Of a DNA stretch of 64,000 bases, positions 21,722 through 33,724 are shown in pieces (the stretch's first letter is position 1; every line of letters begins with the position of its first letter). The DNA comes from Gallionella sp. (lineage in GTDB: Bacteria; Pseudomonadota; Gammaproteobacteria; Burkholderiales; Gallionellaceae), in the NCBI GenBank assembly GCA_028710565.1, contig JAQTTV010000017.1, positions 1-64,000 of the forward strand. The letters are read 5' to 3'. The notes beneath the pieces were generated by a model. That model did not search any database, was not told the DNA's origin, and worked only from the letters and a program-made list of their open reading frames with translations. The position numbers and the translations under genes were made by a program.

Positions 21722-24613
21722 ATGAATATAAAACCACTCTTTAAATCATCATACTGGATGATGTTATGTCTCTTCACAAGTACATATGCACAAGCGGATG
21801 TGATGCCCACCGAACCCATTTTGCGCATTGACACGGGTGACCATGTCGCTGTGATTAGACGGATTGCCTCGGATGATGCGGGGCGTTGGTTGGCAACGGC
21901 TTCAGATGACAAAACGGTACGCGTATGGGATTTGAGCAACAATGGTCGTTTGGTCACCACCTTGCGCCCCCCAATTGGCTTGGGCAATATCGGCAAGCTC
22001 AATGCCGTCGCGATGTCACCCGATGGCAAGCTGGTTGCGACAGGGGGTTGGACAGATGATTCGGATAATTCAGCTTACCTGTTTGACCGTGCCAGTGGTC
22101 GCATGATCCATCGCTTATTAGGCTTACCGAATGTAGTCAATCACCTGGCTTTTTCACCTGATAATCGACTGATCGCCGTATCTTTAACCTTAAAGCATGG
22201 TATTCGTTTGATGTCGGCTGAGACGGGGAAGGTGGTGGCTGAAGACAAGGATTATGGTGGTGCAAGTTTCAGCGCGCACTTTAGTCGAGATGGCCGATTA
22301 ATTACCAGCAGTGAAGATGGCTATGTGCGGATTTATCGCTATGGCGATAATTCTCTTAGTCTCATCAGTAAGGAAAAAGCTGCTGGCGGAACGGATCCTG
22401 GATCAACCGTGTTTTCCAATGACAGTCGCCGCGTCGCCGTTGGGTTCTACGACAAAAACACCATCAGCGTGCTGGATGGCGGTGACCTGTCTTTACGCTA
22501 CTCCCCAGACATCTCTGGCGCGACAGCATCCATGCAATGCACCGCATGGTCGGATAATGGCAACTGGTTGTATGCCGCTGGCTCATCGCAAAGTGGGGAC
22601 AAGCGTTTTATTCGCCGCTGGAAAGCATACGACCTTAGCGCGGGAAACTTCGTAGACTGGCCTGTTTCTAGTGACACCATTATGTTTTTATCCGCCCTGC
22701 CTGGGGATAAAGTCGCTTTTAGCACGGGGGAACCTAGCTGGGGCGTGATGAATTCATCGGGCGAGAAAGTGATTTACCACGGTGCACCTGTGGTCGATTT
22801 TCGCTCCAATTACGAAGGCTTTAAGTTGTCACGCGATGCATCAAAAGTGCGTTTTGGTTACTTGAATTACGGCAAAGACCCTGTGGTATTTGATGTTCAA
22901 CGGCGTGCTTTCCTGCCCGAAAATGCCGACGGACTGAATTCGCCCGTTATTTCAACTTCGGCTTTGACCGTGTCCAATTGGAAAAACTATCTCGATCCCA
23001 AGCTCAATAACAATCCTTTGACGCTCAAGTCGAACGAAAGGTCACGTAGCGTAGCGATGCGCTTTGATACGGTCGGTTTTGTACTAGGGACAGAATGGCG
23101 GTTGCGTGCCTTTGATGGCGCGGGTAAACAAGTCTGGGAAAAACCAGTTCCAGGCTCCGCATGGGGGGTGAATACCTCGCAAGATGGTCGCTGGGTCGTT
23201 GCCAGCTATAGTGATGGCACCATCCGCTGGCACCGCGTGAGTGACGGCGAAGAGCAATTAGCCTTGTATCCAAGTCCTGATCGCAAACGTTGGGTCATGT
23301 GGACACCCAATGGGTATTACGATGCCAGTCCTGGTGCGGAAGATTTAATCGGATGGCATGTCAATAACGGCAAAGACCAAGCTGCGGACTTCTTCCCTGC
23401 TTCGCGTTTCCGTGACCGCTTCTATCGCCCCGACGTCATTAGCAAAGTGCTGGATTTAGGCACGGCCGATGCAGCTTTGCAACAGGCCAACCAAGAAACA
23501 GGTCGCAGAGAGCAAACTCAATCCATTACGGAAGTATTGCCACCTGTCATTACCATACTCTCTCCACCAGGGATGACCGTCAGCTCCACCACCATCAAAA
23601 TCAAGTACTCAGTACGCAGTCCTGACAACGCGCCTGTGACATCGGTTCGTGTACGGATTAACGGACAAGCCGTGACGGTTGAACGTGGATTAGCCCGTAA
23701 AGATAACCCCGCTGATCCAACGCGCGAAATCGAAGTCAAGATTCCTGAGTCTGACAGCGAAATTGCCCTATTTGCCGAAAACAGAAATGGCGTATCGGTT
23801 GCTGGCAAAGTCAATGTGGTATGGGGTGGTGCTCGCTCGATTCAATCTGAAGAAAGCCTATTCAAACCTAAACTTTATGTTTTGGCGGTTGGCGTATCGA
23901 AATACAAAAATGCGGATTACAACTTAGGACTCGCTTCTAAGGATGCGCGTGACTTTGCTGCCGTATTGCAAAAACAAAAGGGTCGCTTATATGGTGATGT
24001 GGTTGTCAAATTACTGACGGATGAGCAAGCTAACAAAGATGATGTGCTGGATGGCTTGGAATGGCTTAAATCCCAAGTAACTTCTCGCGACGTCGGGATT
24101 ATGTTCTTGGCGGGTCATGGTCTAAATGACAATAACGGCAATTACTACTTCCTGCCCCACAACGTCAATACCAGCCAATTACTCCGTACTGGGGTGGCAC
24201 AAAACGACATCAAAATCACCCTGAACAGCTTGGCGGGCAAGGCGATATTCTTTGTCGATACGTGTCATTCTGGCAACGCACTGGGTTCGGCTAAAACCCG
24301 TGGCGTGGCAGACACCAATGGAATCGTCAACGATCTGTCTTCCGCAGAAAATGGCGTGGTGGTGTTTGCGGCATCCACAGGCAAACAGTCTTCACAAGAA
24401 GATCCAGCTTGGGGTAACGGTGCCTTTACCAAGGCAGTCGTCGAAGGTTTGAGCGGCAAAGCAGACTTTGGTAATCGCGGTAAAATTACGCATAAAGGCT
24501 TGGATTATTACGTCGCAGAACGTGTGAAAGAACTGACCCATGGTCAACAATCTCCTGTCAGTATCGCGCCAAATGGCGTGGCAGACTTCCCGATTGCAAT
24601 TACAGGGAAATAG
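21722..24613 (+). CDS. Exported WD40-repeat protein with C-terminal caspase (peptidase C14) domain
   Basis: Signal peptide ending TSTYAQA; WD repeats (ASDDKTVRVWDL); catalytic His region FLAGHGLNDNNGNYYFLPHN and Cys region FFVDTCHSGNAL. Confidence 0.9.
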   Translation: MNIKPLFKSSYWMMLCLFTSTYAQADVMPTEPILRIDTGDHVAVIRRIASDDAGRWLATASDDKTVRVWDLSNNGRLVTTLRPPIGLGNIGKLNAVAMSPDGKLVATGGWTDDSDNSAYLFDRASGRMIHRLLGLPNVVNHLAFSPDNRLIAVSLTLKHGIRLMSAETGKVVAEDKDYGGASFSAHFSRDGRLITSSEDGYVRIYRYGDNSLSLISKEKAAGGTDPGSTVFSNDSRRVAVGFYDKNTISVLDGGDLSLRYSPDISGATASMQCTAWSDNGNWLYAAGSSQSGDKRFIRRWKAYDLSAGNFVDWPVSSDTIMFLSALPGDKVAFSTGEPSWGVMNSSGEKVIYHGAPVVDFRSNYEGFKLSRDASKVRFGYLNYGKDPVVFDVQRRAFLPENADGLNSPVISTSALTVSNWKNYLDPKLNNNPLTLKSNERSRSVAMRFDTVGFVLGTEWRLRAFDGAGKQVWEKPVPGSAWGVNTSQDGRWVVASYSDGTIRWHRVSDGEEQLALYPSPDRKRWVMWTPNGYYDASPGAEDLIGWHVNNGKDQAADFFPASRFRDRFYRPDVISKVLDLGTADAALQQANQETGRREQTQSITEVLPPVITILSPPGMTVSSTTIKIKYSVRSPDNAPVTSVRVRINGQAVTVERGLARKDNPADPTREIEVKIPESDSEIALFAENRNGVSVAGKVNVVWGGARSIQSEESLFKPKLYVLAVGVSKYKNADYNLGLASKDARDFAAVLQKQKGRLYGDVVVKLLTDEQANKDDVLDGLEWLKSQVTSRDVGIMFLAGHGLNDNNGNYYFLPHNVNTSQLLRTGVAQNDIKITLNSLAGKAIFFVDTCHSGNALGSAKTRGVADTNGIVNDLSSAENGVVVFAASTGKQSSQEDPAWGNGAFTKAVVEGLSGKADFGNRGKITHKGLDYYVAERVKELTHGQQSPVSIAPNGVADFPIAITGK

Positions 24614-25638: not shown

Positions 25639-26667
25639 ATGCTCAGTAGTATTGCAATTGCAGTCGTTATTTTAGGCGGAATATTGATCCTTTTTGGATT
25701 GATGGGCATCAGATTGAAATTTTTTGGACAGCCCTTGCAGCAATGGTTGGGTGAGTTTGCCCGAGGGATCGGTTTGGTCGTGGGTATTTGTCTCATTACT
25801 TTGGGCATTTGGCTCTATCCCAACCACGAATCAATCAGAGGTATGGCAAAAGACGAAGTGGCTAAAGCAGAGTTGCAAGCCGCGCCGCTTCCCCAACAAA
25901 TATCGACCAAACCAGGCTCCGTGTTTCGGGACTGTCCAAGTTGCCCAGAAATGATCGTGCTACCCGCAGGTAAGTTTTTAATGGGCGCACCCGAAGCAGA
26001 AACTGCACACGAACAAATGGAGATGCCCCAGCATAGTGTCACCCTTAATTATGCTTTAGCCGTGGCGAGAACAGAGATCTCTTTTGCCGAATGGGATGTC
26101 TGTTCAACAGCAGGAGTCTGTCGCAAAAACGTTGAAAGCAATTGGCCACGTGGGCAACAACCTGCCATCAACATTAACTGGAATGATGCGAATACTTACA
26201 TAGAGTGGCTCTCCAAGACGACAGGTCAATCCTATCGTTTGCTCACAGAGTCCGAATGGGAATATGCCGCTCGTGGCAATACTCAAACCGCCTACTCTTG
26301 GGGAAATCAAATCGGCAATAATCAAGCCAATTGCTCCCTATGCGGTTCACAGTCCACACAGTCCAAAGTTATTGGGCCACAACTGGTCGGCTCTTATACC
26401 CCAAATTTATTCGGTTTATTTGATATGCACGGCAATGTGCAAGAATGGGTACAGGATTGCTGGCATGAAAACTACCAAGGTGCGCCACAAGATGGAAGCG
26501 CGTGGATCACCGCTTGCAGCGAAGGTCGGCGCATCGTGCGTGGCGGCGCATGGGACAGTAGCGCAACCGCATTACGTAGCGCAGCGCGTGACCGAAAAAC
26601 ATGGGATCACCTCAGTCCGAGCATCGGTTTCCGTGTGGCACGCGTCATCACTCTAGCCAATCTATAG
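25639..26667 (+). CDS. Membrane-anchored formylglycine-generating-enzyme/sulfatase-modifying-factor domain protein
   Basis: TM N-terminus; MIVLPAGKFLMGAP, YRLLTESEWEYAARGNTQTAYSWG, LFDMHGNVQEWVQDCW, VRGGAW...IGFRVAR. Confidence 0.9.
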   Translation: MLSSIAIAVVILGGILILFGLMGIRLKFFGQPLQQWLGEFARGIGLVVGICLITLGIWLYPNHESIRGMAKDEVAKAELQAAPLPQQISTKPGSVFRDCPSCPEMIVLPAGKFLMGAPEAETAHEQMEMPQHSVTLNYALAVARTEISFAEWDVCSTAGVCRKNVESNWPRGQQPAININWNDANTYIEWLSKTTGQSYRLLTESEWEYAARGNTQTAYSWGNQIGNNQANCSLCGSQSTQSKVIGPQLVGSYTPNLFGLFDMHGNVQEWVQDCWHENYQGAPQDGSAWITACSEGRRIVRGGAWDSSATALRSAARDRKTWDHLSPSIGFRVARVITLANL

Positions 26668-29529: not shown

Positions 29530-29675
29530 TCCCGCACGCTTTCGTAAAAATTAAGGCGCGTATTATGCCGCAGAACACAGGATACGTCGCCGTCCAACGT
29601 TCGCGCATATCGACGGAATGAACCCCCTCACGTATGATGCGGCGCACTCCCTGCTTGCAGAAAAAGGTGATTCCC

Positions 29676-32447
29676 ATGACGCAATCTTCCCCAACTCCGA
29701 TTGAAGCACTCAAGGCATTGCTGGATGCAGGTTTACTCCAGCAAGTTGCTTACGATGCCGCCGTGTCTGCCATGCAAGCCCAACTCACGGGAAACGGGGC
29801 GATTGCCCAAGGAGAAAACAATGTTGCACTTGGGGCTGGCAGTGTTTATATCAACGGCAACTTTAACTTCGACGGGTTGCTCAAGCAAGGCACGCAAGCC
29901 AATGCCAGCAAGGAAGATATGCAGCGCGCTTACTTGGCGTGTATTTTGCAGTCGGCGGATGAGTTGCCGCTGTTTGCCAACGATAAAAAACTGAAACTTT
30001 CCTCTGTTTACACCGCGCTGCTAACCCAACGTAGCGAATCGAATGTCATCGAAAAATCCCCCGAACAGCAGGCCAAACTCCTCTCAGCCTTGGATGTATT
30101 GAATGCCGAAAAAAAGCTGGTACTGCTAGGCGGGCCTGGCAGTGGCAAAAGCACATTTGTCAATTTTGTCGCGCTGTCGATGGCGGGAGAGTTGCTGGGC
30201 GACAATACGCTCAATCTCGCCAGCCTCACCGCGCCGCTACCCAATGAGCAAGACAGCCGTCCACAACACTGGGATCACGGTGGGCTGCTACCCGTTTTGA
30301 TTACCTTGCGCGACTTTGCCAGTCAGTTGCCCCCAGCGGGATGCCCCGTGAATGCAGAAACAGTTTGCACCCATCTGCAAAAGAAACTCCAAGCGTATGC
30401 GCTGGCGGATTTTTATCCCCATTTGCGTGACGAAATGTTGCAAGGGCGCGCCATGATTTTGTTTGACGGACTGGACGAAGTGCCCGATGCAGATGAGCGG
30501 CGGTTGCAAATCAAACAAGCGGTGCAAGAATTTGCCAAAACCTTTTTCCGCAGCCGTTTTCTGGTAACCAGCCGCACCTACGCCTATCAACGGCAAGACT
30601 GGAAACTGGATGGTTTTGCAGCGGTTGACCTGTTGCCCTTCACGCTGGGGCAAATTCATCGCTTTGTCGAAGTGTGGTATCAGCAGATGGTGCATCTGCA
30701 CAAGCTCACCGCCGTCAGTGCAGCAGATCGCGCCGAAGTATTGCTTCGCACGGTAGAACGCAACGAACGTCTGTTCAAATTGGCGGAACGACCGTTATTG
30801 CTGACTTTAATCGCCCAAATCCAAACTGACAAAGGCGGCGACCTGCCCGAAAAACCTGAGCAACTTTACGACAAAGCCGTTGAAATGCTGCTGAATCAAT
30901 GGGAAGGGATGAAGAAAGTCATCGGCGAAAAAGGTGAAGAAATCATCCAGCTCAGTCTTGCCGAGTATCTCGATGTCGGGAAAGACAAAATCCGAAAACA
31001 ACTCAATCGCTTGGCATTTGAGGCACATCGTGACCAACCCGACCTCAGGGACACTGCCAGCATTCGGCAAGCGGACTTGATTTGCGCCCTGATGAACGCC
31101 AGTCCAACCCCTGAAAAAGTGAAGCCCAAACTTTTGGAGCGGTATTTGAGTGAGCGCGCAGGCATTTTGGCGGCACACGGCAACAAAATGTACCAATTCC
31201 CGCACCGCTCTTTTCAAGAATATCTCGCCGCCTGCCATCTGACCGATGACGATTTTCCTGAGCAATTAGTGGAATTATTCCTCAACGATACCAATCGTTG
31301 GCGCGAAGTAGTGTTGCTGGCAGGGGCAAAAGCCGCACGCGGTGCAGCGGTCAATGCTTGGATGTTAAGCGAAACCTTGTGCCCAGAAATTCCCACGGGG
31401 CAGGATGATGAAAAAGATCATTTCGGCGCGCTGTTAGCGGGACGCGTGCTGGTGGAGAGTGCAGATTTAAGCCACGTTGCGCGCCGCGACCTGCCCAAAC
31501 TGGATCGCATCCGCACTTGGCAACTTGCTATTTTGCGCCAAAACGTCTTGCCCGCCCTAGATCGTGCACTGGCAGGACGAACCCTCGCCACATTGGGCGA
31601 TACGCGGCAAGAAGTGATGACACTGGACGAGATGCAATTTTGCTATGTCCCCGCAGGCAGCTTTACCATGGGCGAAGGCGAGGAAGCGCATTCTGTTACA
31701 TTGCAACAACCCTATTGGATGGCGCGCTTTCCTGTGACGCTCGCACAATGGCGTGAGTATTTGCAATGCAGCGGCAACGCGCCTGACGATGATGACAGCC
31801 TGAAAGGTCATGGCAATGTGCCTGTTGCCAATGTCACATGGCATGACGCACGGCGTTTTTGCGATTATCTCACCCAAGCATGGCAAGCTGTTTTACCCAA
31901 GGGCTATATCGTCACTTTGCCGTCCGAAGCGGAATGGGAGCAAGCCGCACGCGGCGGCGAATGGATACCAGATGCCCCGCGTTATGCCTCAGTCGCGCAA
32001 ATGGGAAAATGCGTGGAAACACCTTTGCACGTCAATGCTTCGCCGCAACGTGGTTATCCTTGGGGCGATGACTTTGACGCAGACAAAGCCAATGTCAATA
32101 CACCTTTCGGTGAGGCCAGCGTGGTCGGTTGCTATCCGTTAGGCGCAAGTCCTTACGGCTGCGAAGAAATGAGCGGCAATGTATGGGAATGGACGCGTAG
32201 CTTATGGGGTAGAGATAGGCGAAAACCAGAATATAGCTATCCATATCAACCTGACGATGGGCGTGAAAATCTGGATACGGACGATACGGGGGGGCGGGTG
32301 CTTAAGGTGCTGCGCGGCGGATCTTGGGGCTGGCCCAGTGACTATGCACGCTGTGCCTTGCGCTTCTGGGTTGATCCTAACTTTCGTATTGTCGGTATCG
32401 GCTTTCGGGTCGTGTTGCGTTTTTCCCCTGTTAACTCTGGACTCTGA
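29676..32447 (+). CDS. NACHT-STAND NTPase with N-terminal 'GAIAQG' tag and C-terminal FGE-sulfatase/C-type-lectin domain
   Basis: ATG at 29676; GNGAIAQGENNVALGAGSVYINGNFN tag; VLLGGPGSGKSTFVNFVALSM Walker A; MILFDGLDEVPD; FLVTSRTYAYQ; FGE domain MQFCYVPAGSFTMGEG...LRGGSWGW...IGFRVV. Confidence 0.92.
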   Translation: MTQSSPTPIEALKALLDAGLLQQVAYDAAVSAMQAQLTGNGAIAQGENNVALGAGSVYINGNFNFDGLLKQGTQANASKEDMQRAYLACILQSADELPLFANDKKLKLSSVYTALLTQRSESNVIEKSPEQQAKLLSALDVLNAEKKLVLLGGPGSGKSTFVNFVALSMAGELLGDNTLNLASLTAPLPNEQDSRPQHWDHGGLLPVLITLRDFASQLPPAGCPVNAETVCTHLQKKLQAYALADFYPHLRDEMLQGRAMILFDGLDEVPDADERRLQIKQAVQEFAKTFFRSRFLVTSRTYAYQRQDWKLDGFAAVDLLPFTLGQIHRFVEVWYQQMVHLHKLTAVSAADRAEVLLRTVERNERLFKLAERPLLLTLIAQIQTDKGGDLPEKPEQLYDKAVEMLLNQWEGMKKVIGEKGEEIIQLSLAEYLDVGKDKIRKQLNRLAFEAHRDQPDLRDTASIRQADLICALMNASPTPEKVKPKLLERYLSERAGILAAHGNKMYQFPHRSFQEYLAACHLTDDDFPEQLVELFLNDTNRWREVVLLAGAKAARGAAVNAWMLSETLCPEIPTGQDDEKDHFGALLAGRVLVESADLSHVARRDLPKLDRIRTWQLAILRQNVLPALDRALAGRTLATLGDTRQEVMTLDEMQFCYVPAGSFTMGEGEEAHSVTLQQPYWMARFPVTLAQWREYLQCSGNAPDDDDSLKGHGNVPVANVTWHDARRFCDYLTQAWQAVLPKGYIVTLPSEAEWEQAARGGEWIPDAPRYASVAQMGKCVETPLHVNASPQRGYPWGDDFDADKANVNTPFGEASVVGCYPLGASPYGCEEMSGNVWEWTRSLWGRDRRKPEYSYPYQPDDGRENLDTDDTGGRVLKVLRGGSWGWPSDYARCALRFWVDPNFRIVGIGFRVVLRFSPVNSGL
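32308..32425 (+). other. Candidate diversity-generating-retroelement variable-repeat region
   Basis: LRGGSWGWPSDYARCALRFWVDPNFRIVGIGFRVV: CLec VR-like layout; varying positions F,V,N,F,I,V,G are all NNY codons (TTC GTT AAC TTT ATT GTC GGT). Confidence 0.45.
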
Positions 32448-32578
32448 TAACTCTGGAGGGAGTGCGGGGGAGAGCGTAGTGTGGATAAGCAATAGCGCAT
32501 CCACATTTTCCCTGTTTATTCAGGTGGATGCGATTCGCTCACCTACCCTGCTCACGCTAAAAATATAAAACCTGACTG

Positions 32579-32685: not shown

Positions 32686-33150
32686 CTAACCCAACGTTTC
32701 TTTGAGTTTTTCCAACACATATTCTGTCGCGGGTTTGGCAATGCCGCCGAGTATGGGCGAAGCAAACATACTCACGACCACACCCACGGCAGCGGGCACT
32801 AATGCCACAAAACCCTCGATCATTTTTGCCATCACTTTGTCTTCGGCTTTATCGCCCTTGGCAACTTCCGCCTTGAGAGCTTCAACGTGTTGCACCGCAG
32901 CGGCTTGTTTCTCGGCGGGGGCTAGTTTAATTTCGGTCAACAAAGGGGAAAACAGCAATGCTAATTGTTCGGCTGAAATGCCGTTGGTTTGCGTGCCAGT
33001 GTTGATATTGCCGCTATTGTTGCCGCCAACATGAACGGCTCCCGCACCGAGTGCTTGTGCCCCGTGACCTTGTGCGATTGCGCCGCTTCCGTTGACCGTG
33101 GCACTGTATGACGTGCCGCCTTGTGACGTTGCATTTTCGTTGTTTGGCAT
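32686..33150 (-). CDS. Small 'GAIAQG'-tagged protein with C-terminal hydrophobic segment
   Basis: Start taken at MPNNENATSQGG (33150); VNGSGAIAQGHGAQALGAGAVHVGGNNSGNINTGTQ; hydrophobic FVALVPAAVGVVVSMFASPILGGIA. Confidence 0.75.
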   Translation of the reverse strand: MPNNENATSQGGTSYSATVNGSGAIAQGHGAQALGAGAVHVGGNNSGNINTGTQTNGISAEQLALLFSPLLTEIKLAPAEKQAAAVQHVEALKAEVAKGDKAEDKVMAKMIEGFVALVPAAVGVVVSMFASPILGGIAKPATEYVLEKLKETLG

Positions 33151-33590: not shown

Positions 33591-33714
33591 ACCGACTACC
33601 GACTACCGACTACCGACTACCGACTACCGACTACCGACTACCGACTAAGAACTACCGACTAAGAACTAACGACTAAGAACTAACGACTAAGAACTAACGA
33701 CTAAGAACTAACAA
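33591..33714. repeat. Heptamer tandem array (CCGACTA, then AGAACTA/ACGACTA)
   Basis: Direct reading of ccgactaccgacta... and aagaactaacgactaagaactaacgact... Confidence 0.95.
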
Positions 33715-33724
33715 CCAGACGCAT

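Follow-up and report, generated by a model that had tools for sequence, protein, structure and literature searches.

Features of the locus

The window considered here is a 64,000-nucleotide stretch of a Gallionella sp. genome (contig JAQTTV010000017.1, positions 1 to 64,000). It carries an intact gene for a protein that joins a NACHT NTPase domain to a C-terminal FGE-fold domain, followed by the probable remains of a DGR target site and by a small gene on the opposite strand. The features are:

29634-32447, forward strand: NACHT-FGE protein, an intact ORF of 937 aa; target 'A' of a presumed former DGR cassette
29790-29876, forward strand: N-terminal Gly-rich motif of NACHT-FGE, GNGAIAQG...GAGSVYINGN, by sequence similarity
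30117-30677, forward strand: NACHT NTPase domain (PF05729, E 8.6e-6) with Walker A GGPGSGKS and Walker B-like MILFDGLDE
31641-32414, forward strand: FGE-sulfatase/C-type-lectin-fold domain (PF03781, residues 670-927, E 5e-36), a putative ligand sensor
32310-32420, forward strand: very probable DGR variable repeat (VR), aligned with the template repeats L248:4590-4717 and L027:10240-10369
32464-32473, forward strand: hairpin 5' arm GCGGGGGAGA, its 3' arm missing in the window
about 32474-32477: putative deletion junction between the hairpin 5' arm and the far-side sequence
32478-32532, forward strand: far side of the putative deletion, 87.5% over 56 bp to L145:3312-3257
32686-33150, reverse strand: small protein, 154 aa, with the shared Gly-rich motif and a C-terminal region containing a hydrophobic stretch

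The start codon of the NACHT-FGE gene is probably the ATG at 29676 rather than 29634, because homology with the corresponding protein of G331, the relative described in the next section, begins there. The Walker A and Walker B-like motifs, at residues 166 and 274, are both intact, and the PF05729 score lies just under the curated cut-off, with both G331 targets over it. The family name FGE is used here as a statement of fold. The predicted structure of the last 300 residues has a pLDDT of 81 and a pTM of 0.87, and the model of the FGE domain resembles TvpA (2y3c), a DGR variable protein of Treponema, as well as enzymes of the FGE fold. The coding sequence terminates in LRGGSWGWPSDYARCALRFWVDPNFRIVGIGFRVVLRFSPVNSGL; its last 45 codons, from 32310, lie within the FGE domain. 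Searches with defence models gave no strong match in PADLOC, and the NCBIfam anti-phage NACHT models all scored under cut-off. Within a few kb of this gene, at 21722-24613, the window encodes a large protein whose N-terminal part is WD40-like and whose C-terminal domain is caspase-like (PADLOC 'caspase', E 6e-12).

The N-termini of the small protein and of NACHT-FGE have in common a Gly-rich motif, GNGAIAQG..A.G.G.V...G...G.INTGTQ, that is also present in both targets of G331 and in the effector of G331, where it stands behind a TIR-like domain. The small protein is 50% identical over 176 aa to residues 168-343 of this effector, and no remnant of the TIR-like part was found upstream of its gene. 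NLR-like receptors and adjacent effectors sharing motifs are known in amyloid signalling (PMC8086366), and the Gly-rich motif, judged by its sequence, is possibly a homotypic, amyloid-like signalling motif. Between the small gene and argH, at 33591-33715, lies a tandem array with a 7-bp unit (ACCGACT / ACTAAGA).

An intact cassette in a relative

A search across the class located G331, the closest relative found with a full-length ortholog of the window protein. There the gene belongs to a two-target DGR cassette with the following parts:

L248:1574-4438, forward strand: target A, a NACHT-FGE protein, with its VR at the position of the window segment
L248:4590-4717: template repeat (TR), after target A
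L248:5380-4979, reverse strand: Avd (NCBIfam DivGenRetAVD NF033474, E 3e-26, over cut-off)
L248:5427-6521, forward strand: DGR reverse transcriptase (RT; RVT_1)
L248:9471 to 6592, reverse strand: target B, a second NACHT-FGE protein, convergent with A and split into two ORFs
L248:10518-9481, reverse strand: TIR-like effector (TIR_2, E 1.5e-5, under cut-off)

The window protein is 60% identical to target A end to end, over 953 aligned positions, and the VR of target A falls exactly where the preliminary description had placed the variable segment of the window gene. Among the targets, A with A and B with B are each 60% identical, and A with B 33%. Nearly all TR-to-VR mismatches in G331 lie on template adenines, 16 of 17 for the VR of A and 17 of 19 for the VR of B. 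The RT is 54-57% identical to DGR RTs that adjoin other NACHT-FGE genes (L027, L011 and L018). The first of these, a Chloroflexi locus, encodes a NACHT-FGE protein with 44% identity, an RT alongside and a template at L027:10240-10369; L027 and L066 are independent relatives, each with a cis DGR whose template stands at the equivalent place, in an arrangement like that of G331.

Cis DGRs are also found in members of the genus (L210, L211, L214, L215, L216, L220 and L221), with other template types that are mostly not FGE-like. DGRs have therefore been gained and lost within the genus.

Adenine-specific divergence of the variable repeat

The preliminary description took the tail at 32308-32425 for a DGR VR in an FGE/C-type-lectin fold, and relied for this on the layout and on codons: those at the suspected variable positions (TTC, GTT, AAC, TTT, ATT, GTC and GGT) are all NNY. 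The codons are as it gave them, but they are weak evidence by themselves. At the 10 columns with AAY in the related template, NNY is found in 9 of 10 codons of the window VR and in all 10 for G077, the sister genome, and the five ordinary FGEs of the window genome have 7, 7, 8, 6 and 10. Because ordinary FGEs reach 38/50, and one of them 10/10, NNY alone does not single out DGR targets, and as proof it was rejected. Nor are all the residues that were thought conserved invariant: G077 has R in place of the D of WVDP, and the W aligns with an R of the template.

Comparison with the template is the better guide. Over 35 codons the window VR, in which the template-adenine codons span 32328 to 32396, is changed relative to the G331 TR at 21 of 27 adenine positions and at 21 of 78 others (Fisher p=4.6e-6); at codon positions 1-2 only, the counts are 20/26 and 5/44 (p=4e-8). 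The G331 VRs, compared with their own TR over the same 35 codons, are changed at 15-16 of the 27 adenine positions and at 0-1 of the 78 others. The window VR thus combines adenine bias with ordinary drift elsewhere, the pattern to be expected of a VR long separated from its template.

A second comparison, with the VR of the G077 sensor, sets two targets side by side and not one ortholog, the window and G077 sensors being paralogs (A and B); the two VRs differ at 19 of 27 template-adenine positions and 13 of 78 elsewhere (p=5.8e-7), or, at codon positions 1-2 only, at 19/26 and 5/44 (p=2e-7). The differences number 12, 12 and 8 at codon positions 1, 2 and 3 (35 codons each). Five ordinary FGE ortholog pairs from the window genome and G077 have 1, 2 and 22 changes at the three positions of the same stretch. 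At third positions, the divergence between the window and G077 sensor genes is 0.23 in the VR and 0.20 in the tail, and 0.65 in the gene bodies, the species background given by argH and ugd being 0.17-0.21. Saturation at positions 1-2 combined with third positions close to background is the trace that one shared template would leave. The real signal for a VR is the adenine-specific change relative to the template, with positions 1-2 saturated and third positions near background.

An ordinary FGE/C-type-lectin domain, its loops varying under selection and its likeness to a VR coming only from the fold, would explain the LRGGSW...R.A.R...GFR layout, common to all FGE domains, as well as the frequency of NNY at the same columns. 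It leaves unexplained the saturation of the template-adenine codons at positions 1-2 with third positions at species background, an excess missing from the five ordinary pairs of the same two genomes, and it does not accommodate the RT, Avd and TR of the orthologous cassette or the RT fossil in G077 and the half hairpin at the window locus, both described below; it is the least probable of the explanations weighed here. The other FGE domain of the window (25639-26667), which the preliminary description set apart from the tail, is indeed ordinary: it and its G077 ortholog are 95% identical, and across the 35 VR-equivalent codons they differ once at positions 1-2. As for the tail itself, its descent from a cassette orthologous to that of G331 and its adenine bias bear out the original assignment, and the segment is very probably the VR of a NACHT-FGE sensor that a DGR once diversified, the machinery for this having since been lost.

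Absence of the machinery and damage to the target site

Nowhere in the assembly of the window genome (G000; 3.27 Mb in 69 contigs, 99.99% complete) did RVT_1 find a match, a model that detected RTs in 66 of 150 genomes of the family. The assembly is likewise without a match to a profile built from nine DGR RTs. A BLAST search with the VR returned only the VR itself, as did a pattern search in which the suspected positions were masked and up to 3 mismatches allowed; these RT and TR searches cover the 69-contig assembly, and an RT on a replicon that was lost or left unassembled would escape them. In the window locus, TBLASTN with the G331 Avd gave no match, and 3' of the VR there is no remnant of RT or Avd. 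The C7 FGE fragment was considered as a template and rejected, being a truncated FGE without A at many mutable positions.

A GC-rich hairpin, with an 8-bp stem and a 4-nt loop, follows both VRs of G331 and the VR of G077, and is missing after the G331 TR. Hairpins downstream of the VR belong to the target site of DGRs, and in phage BPP-1 homing is efficient only with such a hairpin (PMC3240598). The loops in the relatives are GACT/AACT, not the GRNA consensus. In the window the 5' arm is followed by the putative junction and then by sequence whose G077 counterpart, L145:3312-3257, separates target B from the small gene; this match supports the junction without proving it, as the sequence holds a dispersed repeat.

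The preliminary description supposed that an RT and template would act on the window VR in trans. In Thiohalocapsa PB-PSB1, remote or incomplete loci have been inferred to be served in trans (PMC10907252), DGR RTs are present in other members of the genus and the NACHT-FGE gene is intact, all of which would suit an active target served from elsewhere in the genome or from a mobile replicon. Against this stand the lack of any RVT_1 or DGR-RT profile match, and of any template by BLAST or masked pattern, in a genome that is 99.99% complete, the truncation of the hairpin, which has no 3' arm, and the drift of the window VR at non-adenine positions (21/78, compared with 0/78 and 1/78 for the G331 VRs). 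Present-day action in trans is therefore highly unlikely, and this assembly lends that part of the preliminary description no support. It had also named what would argue against a VR, a genome lacking RT and template together with an absence of adenine-biased variation; no RT or template was indeed found, but the adenine-biased variation is there.

The sister genome

The genes ugd and argH flank a NACHT-FGE gene in both the window genome and G077, and the flanking proteins are 98% identical between the two. The G077 NACHT-FGE protein at this site is 33% identical to the window protein and 60% identical to target B of G331, and its gene is oriented, relative to its neighbours, in reverse of the window gene. 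Past the end of this target B, on the predicted strand, G077 retains an RT fossil (L145:6424-6582), in which RT codons 4-25, interrupted by a stop, are fused to codons 267-288 at 77% identity; it scores 40.8 bits, the maximum among 200 shuffles being 23.9. Matches to Avd in G077 all had E >0.05 and are not taken as a remnant. The other RTs of G077 were rejected as DGR RTs, none matching the DGR-RT profile. A CTCTGA-type repeat array lies between the VR tail and the hairpin of G077 (L145:6278-6410), and a degenerate stretch related to it follows both G331 VRs.

The DNA downstream of the VR is also common to the window and G077 NACHT-FGE genes. This shared tail, and the several FGE genes of the window genome that are closer to one another in their 3' ends and downstream DNA than in their bodies, could point to an RT-independent process in which FGE paralogs exchange 3' ends by recombination and the VR is replaced as a cassette. 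The window genome, however, contains no donor that matches its VR, and recombination alone does not explain why the differences fall at template-adenine positions; such exchange is even less likely than action in trans. Loss of the machinery from a two-target cassette remains the preferred explanation, and because G077 holds an RT fossil and the window half a hairpin, we infer a reciprocal loss that left one frozen sensor in each species, drawn from three genomes among which no ancestor of the window with a full cassette was seen.

A second family of orphan repeats

Four further FGE genes of the window genome have VR-like C-termini:

C8:9815-10504, reverse strand
C7:125-319, forward strand (truncated)
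C18:137998-138666, forward strand
C36:82899-83639, reverse strand

Besides the VR-like stretch they have in common a 3' block that could form a hairpin, and one FGE of G077 has a stretch and block like theirs. In G029, of the same family, a cis DGR with RT, TR and VR carries this 3' block after its VR and lacks it at its template. Compared pairwise, the copies at C7, C8 and C18 and their counterparts in G077 and G136 differ at 14-21 of 30 template-adenine positions and at 4-15 of 69 others. As this second set of FGEs bears a DGR signature of the G029 type, at least two DGR lineages appear to have left VRs in a genome that is now without a DGR RT.

Proposed history and significance

The ancestral-type cassette, of the kind preserved in G331, would have run from ugd to argH as A (forward), TR, Avd (reverse), RT (forward), B (reverse) and effector (reverse). 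Between ugd and argH the window genome has target A and the effector's C-terminal portion, and lacks TR, Avd, RT and B; at this site G077 has B, in the expected orientation, with the same portion of the effector and the RT scar, and would have lost A and the machinery. The orientation of each surviving part agrees with this scheme. The VR was very probably written by adenine-specific mutagenic retrohoming from a TR serving both A and B, and is now inherited as a frozen version. In the protein, the surface that the VR builds on the FGE/C-type-lectin fold would bind a ligand, the NACHT domain would oligomerise and the shared N-terminal motif would couple NACHT-FGE to the small neighbouring protein. 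The outcome may be a defence of the cell-suicide type, with one fixed specificity in place of a changing repertoire.

A bolder version of this history can be offered only tentatively. In it the sister species each froze a different one of two hypermutated NLR-like sensors once the mutator was lost and hand its chosen specificity down to their descendants, passing from an adaptive-like repertoire to an innate, germline-encoded receptor, and the same was repeated at C7, C8, C18 and C36; the result would be a 'post-DGR' genome in which several fixed sensors are kept by selection.

The locus offers a natural before-and-after comparison, of an intact two-target cassette in G331 with two sisters that have one target each, the RT lost and the receptor frame intact. 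It bears on the lifetime of a chosen variant and on its fate after loss of the mutator, and the idea that a winning specificity is selected and the mutator then lost becomes directly testable here.

Comparison with known systems

DGR-diversified NACHT/STAND sensors have been proposed as bacterial antigen sensors. Examples with C-type-lectin domains, often two per RT, are described from Thiohalocapsa PB-PSB1 and its relatives, as are degenerate loci without RT or template, the RT being missing or pseudogenised (PMC10907252), and FGE-fold (FGS) domains with DGRs were described earlier in conflict systems (PMC7159879). The window locus is a relic within this known class; what is unusual is that, of A and B, each sister species has retained the one that the other lacks.

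Among the closest parallels are the DGR clade 5D systems with paired STAND/NACHT-CLec targets, such as DGR 3 of Thiohalocapsa PB-PSB1 (the clade is that of these systems and not an assignment of the G331 RT), in which a NACHT NTPase likewise carries a C-terminal DGR-diversified C-type-lectin/FGE domain, with two targets per RT and putative conflict-system partners. Unlike the situation there, RT and template are missing from the whole window genome, and of the two targets of a single cassette the sister species have kept one each, not the same one. The partners also differ, a Gly-rich motif and a small protein in the window as against EAD8/trypsin and S8-peptidase in Thiohalocapsa.

TvpA of Treponema denticola (2y3c) has the same FGE/C-type-lectin fold and a C-terminal VR, and resembles the window domain in sequence (E 9.6e-6) and in structure (Foldseek E 1.7e-10). 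It has no NACHT fusion, and its genome has a DGR. The Mtd/Brt system of Bordetella phage BPP-1 has in common with the cassette described here the adenine-specific transfer from TR to VR, the Avd, the RT and the hairpin 3' of the VR, but its target, unlike that of the window, is a phage tail-fibre. Hairpins of phage DGRs lie 4-34 bp from the VR and have a GRNA loop (PMC3240598), whereas those of the relatives studied here, with an 8-bp stem and GACT/AACT loops, lie farther downstream. The window protein is also like the bacterial NACHT and Avs anti-phage STAND proteins in joining a NACHT core to a variable C-terminal sensor.
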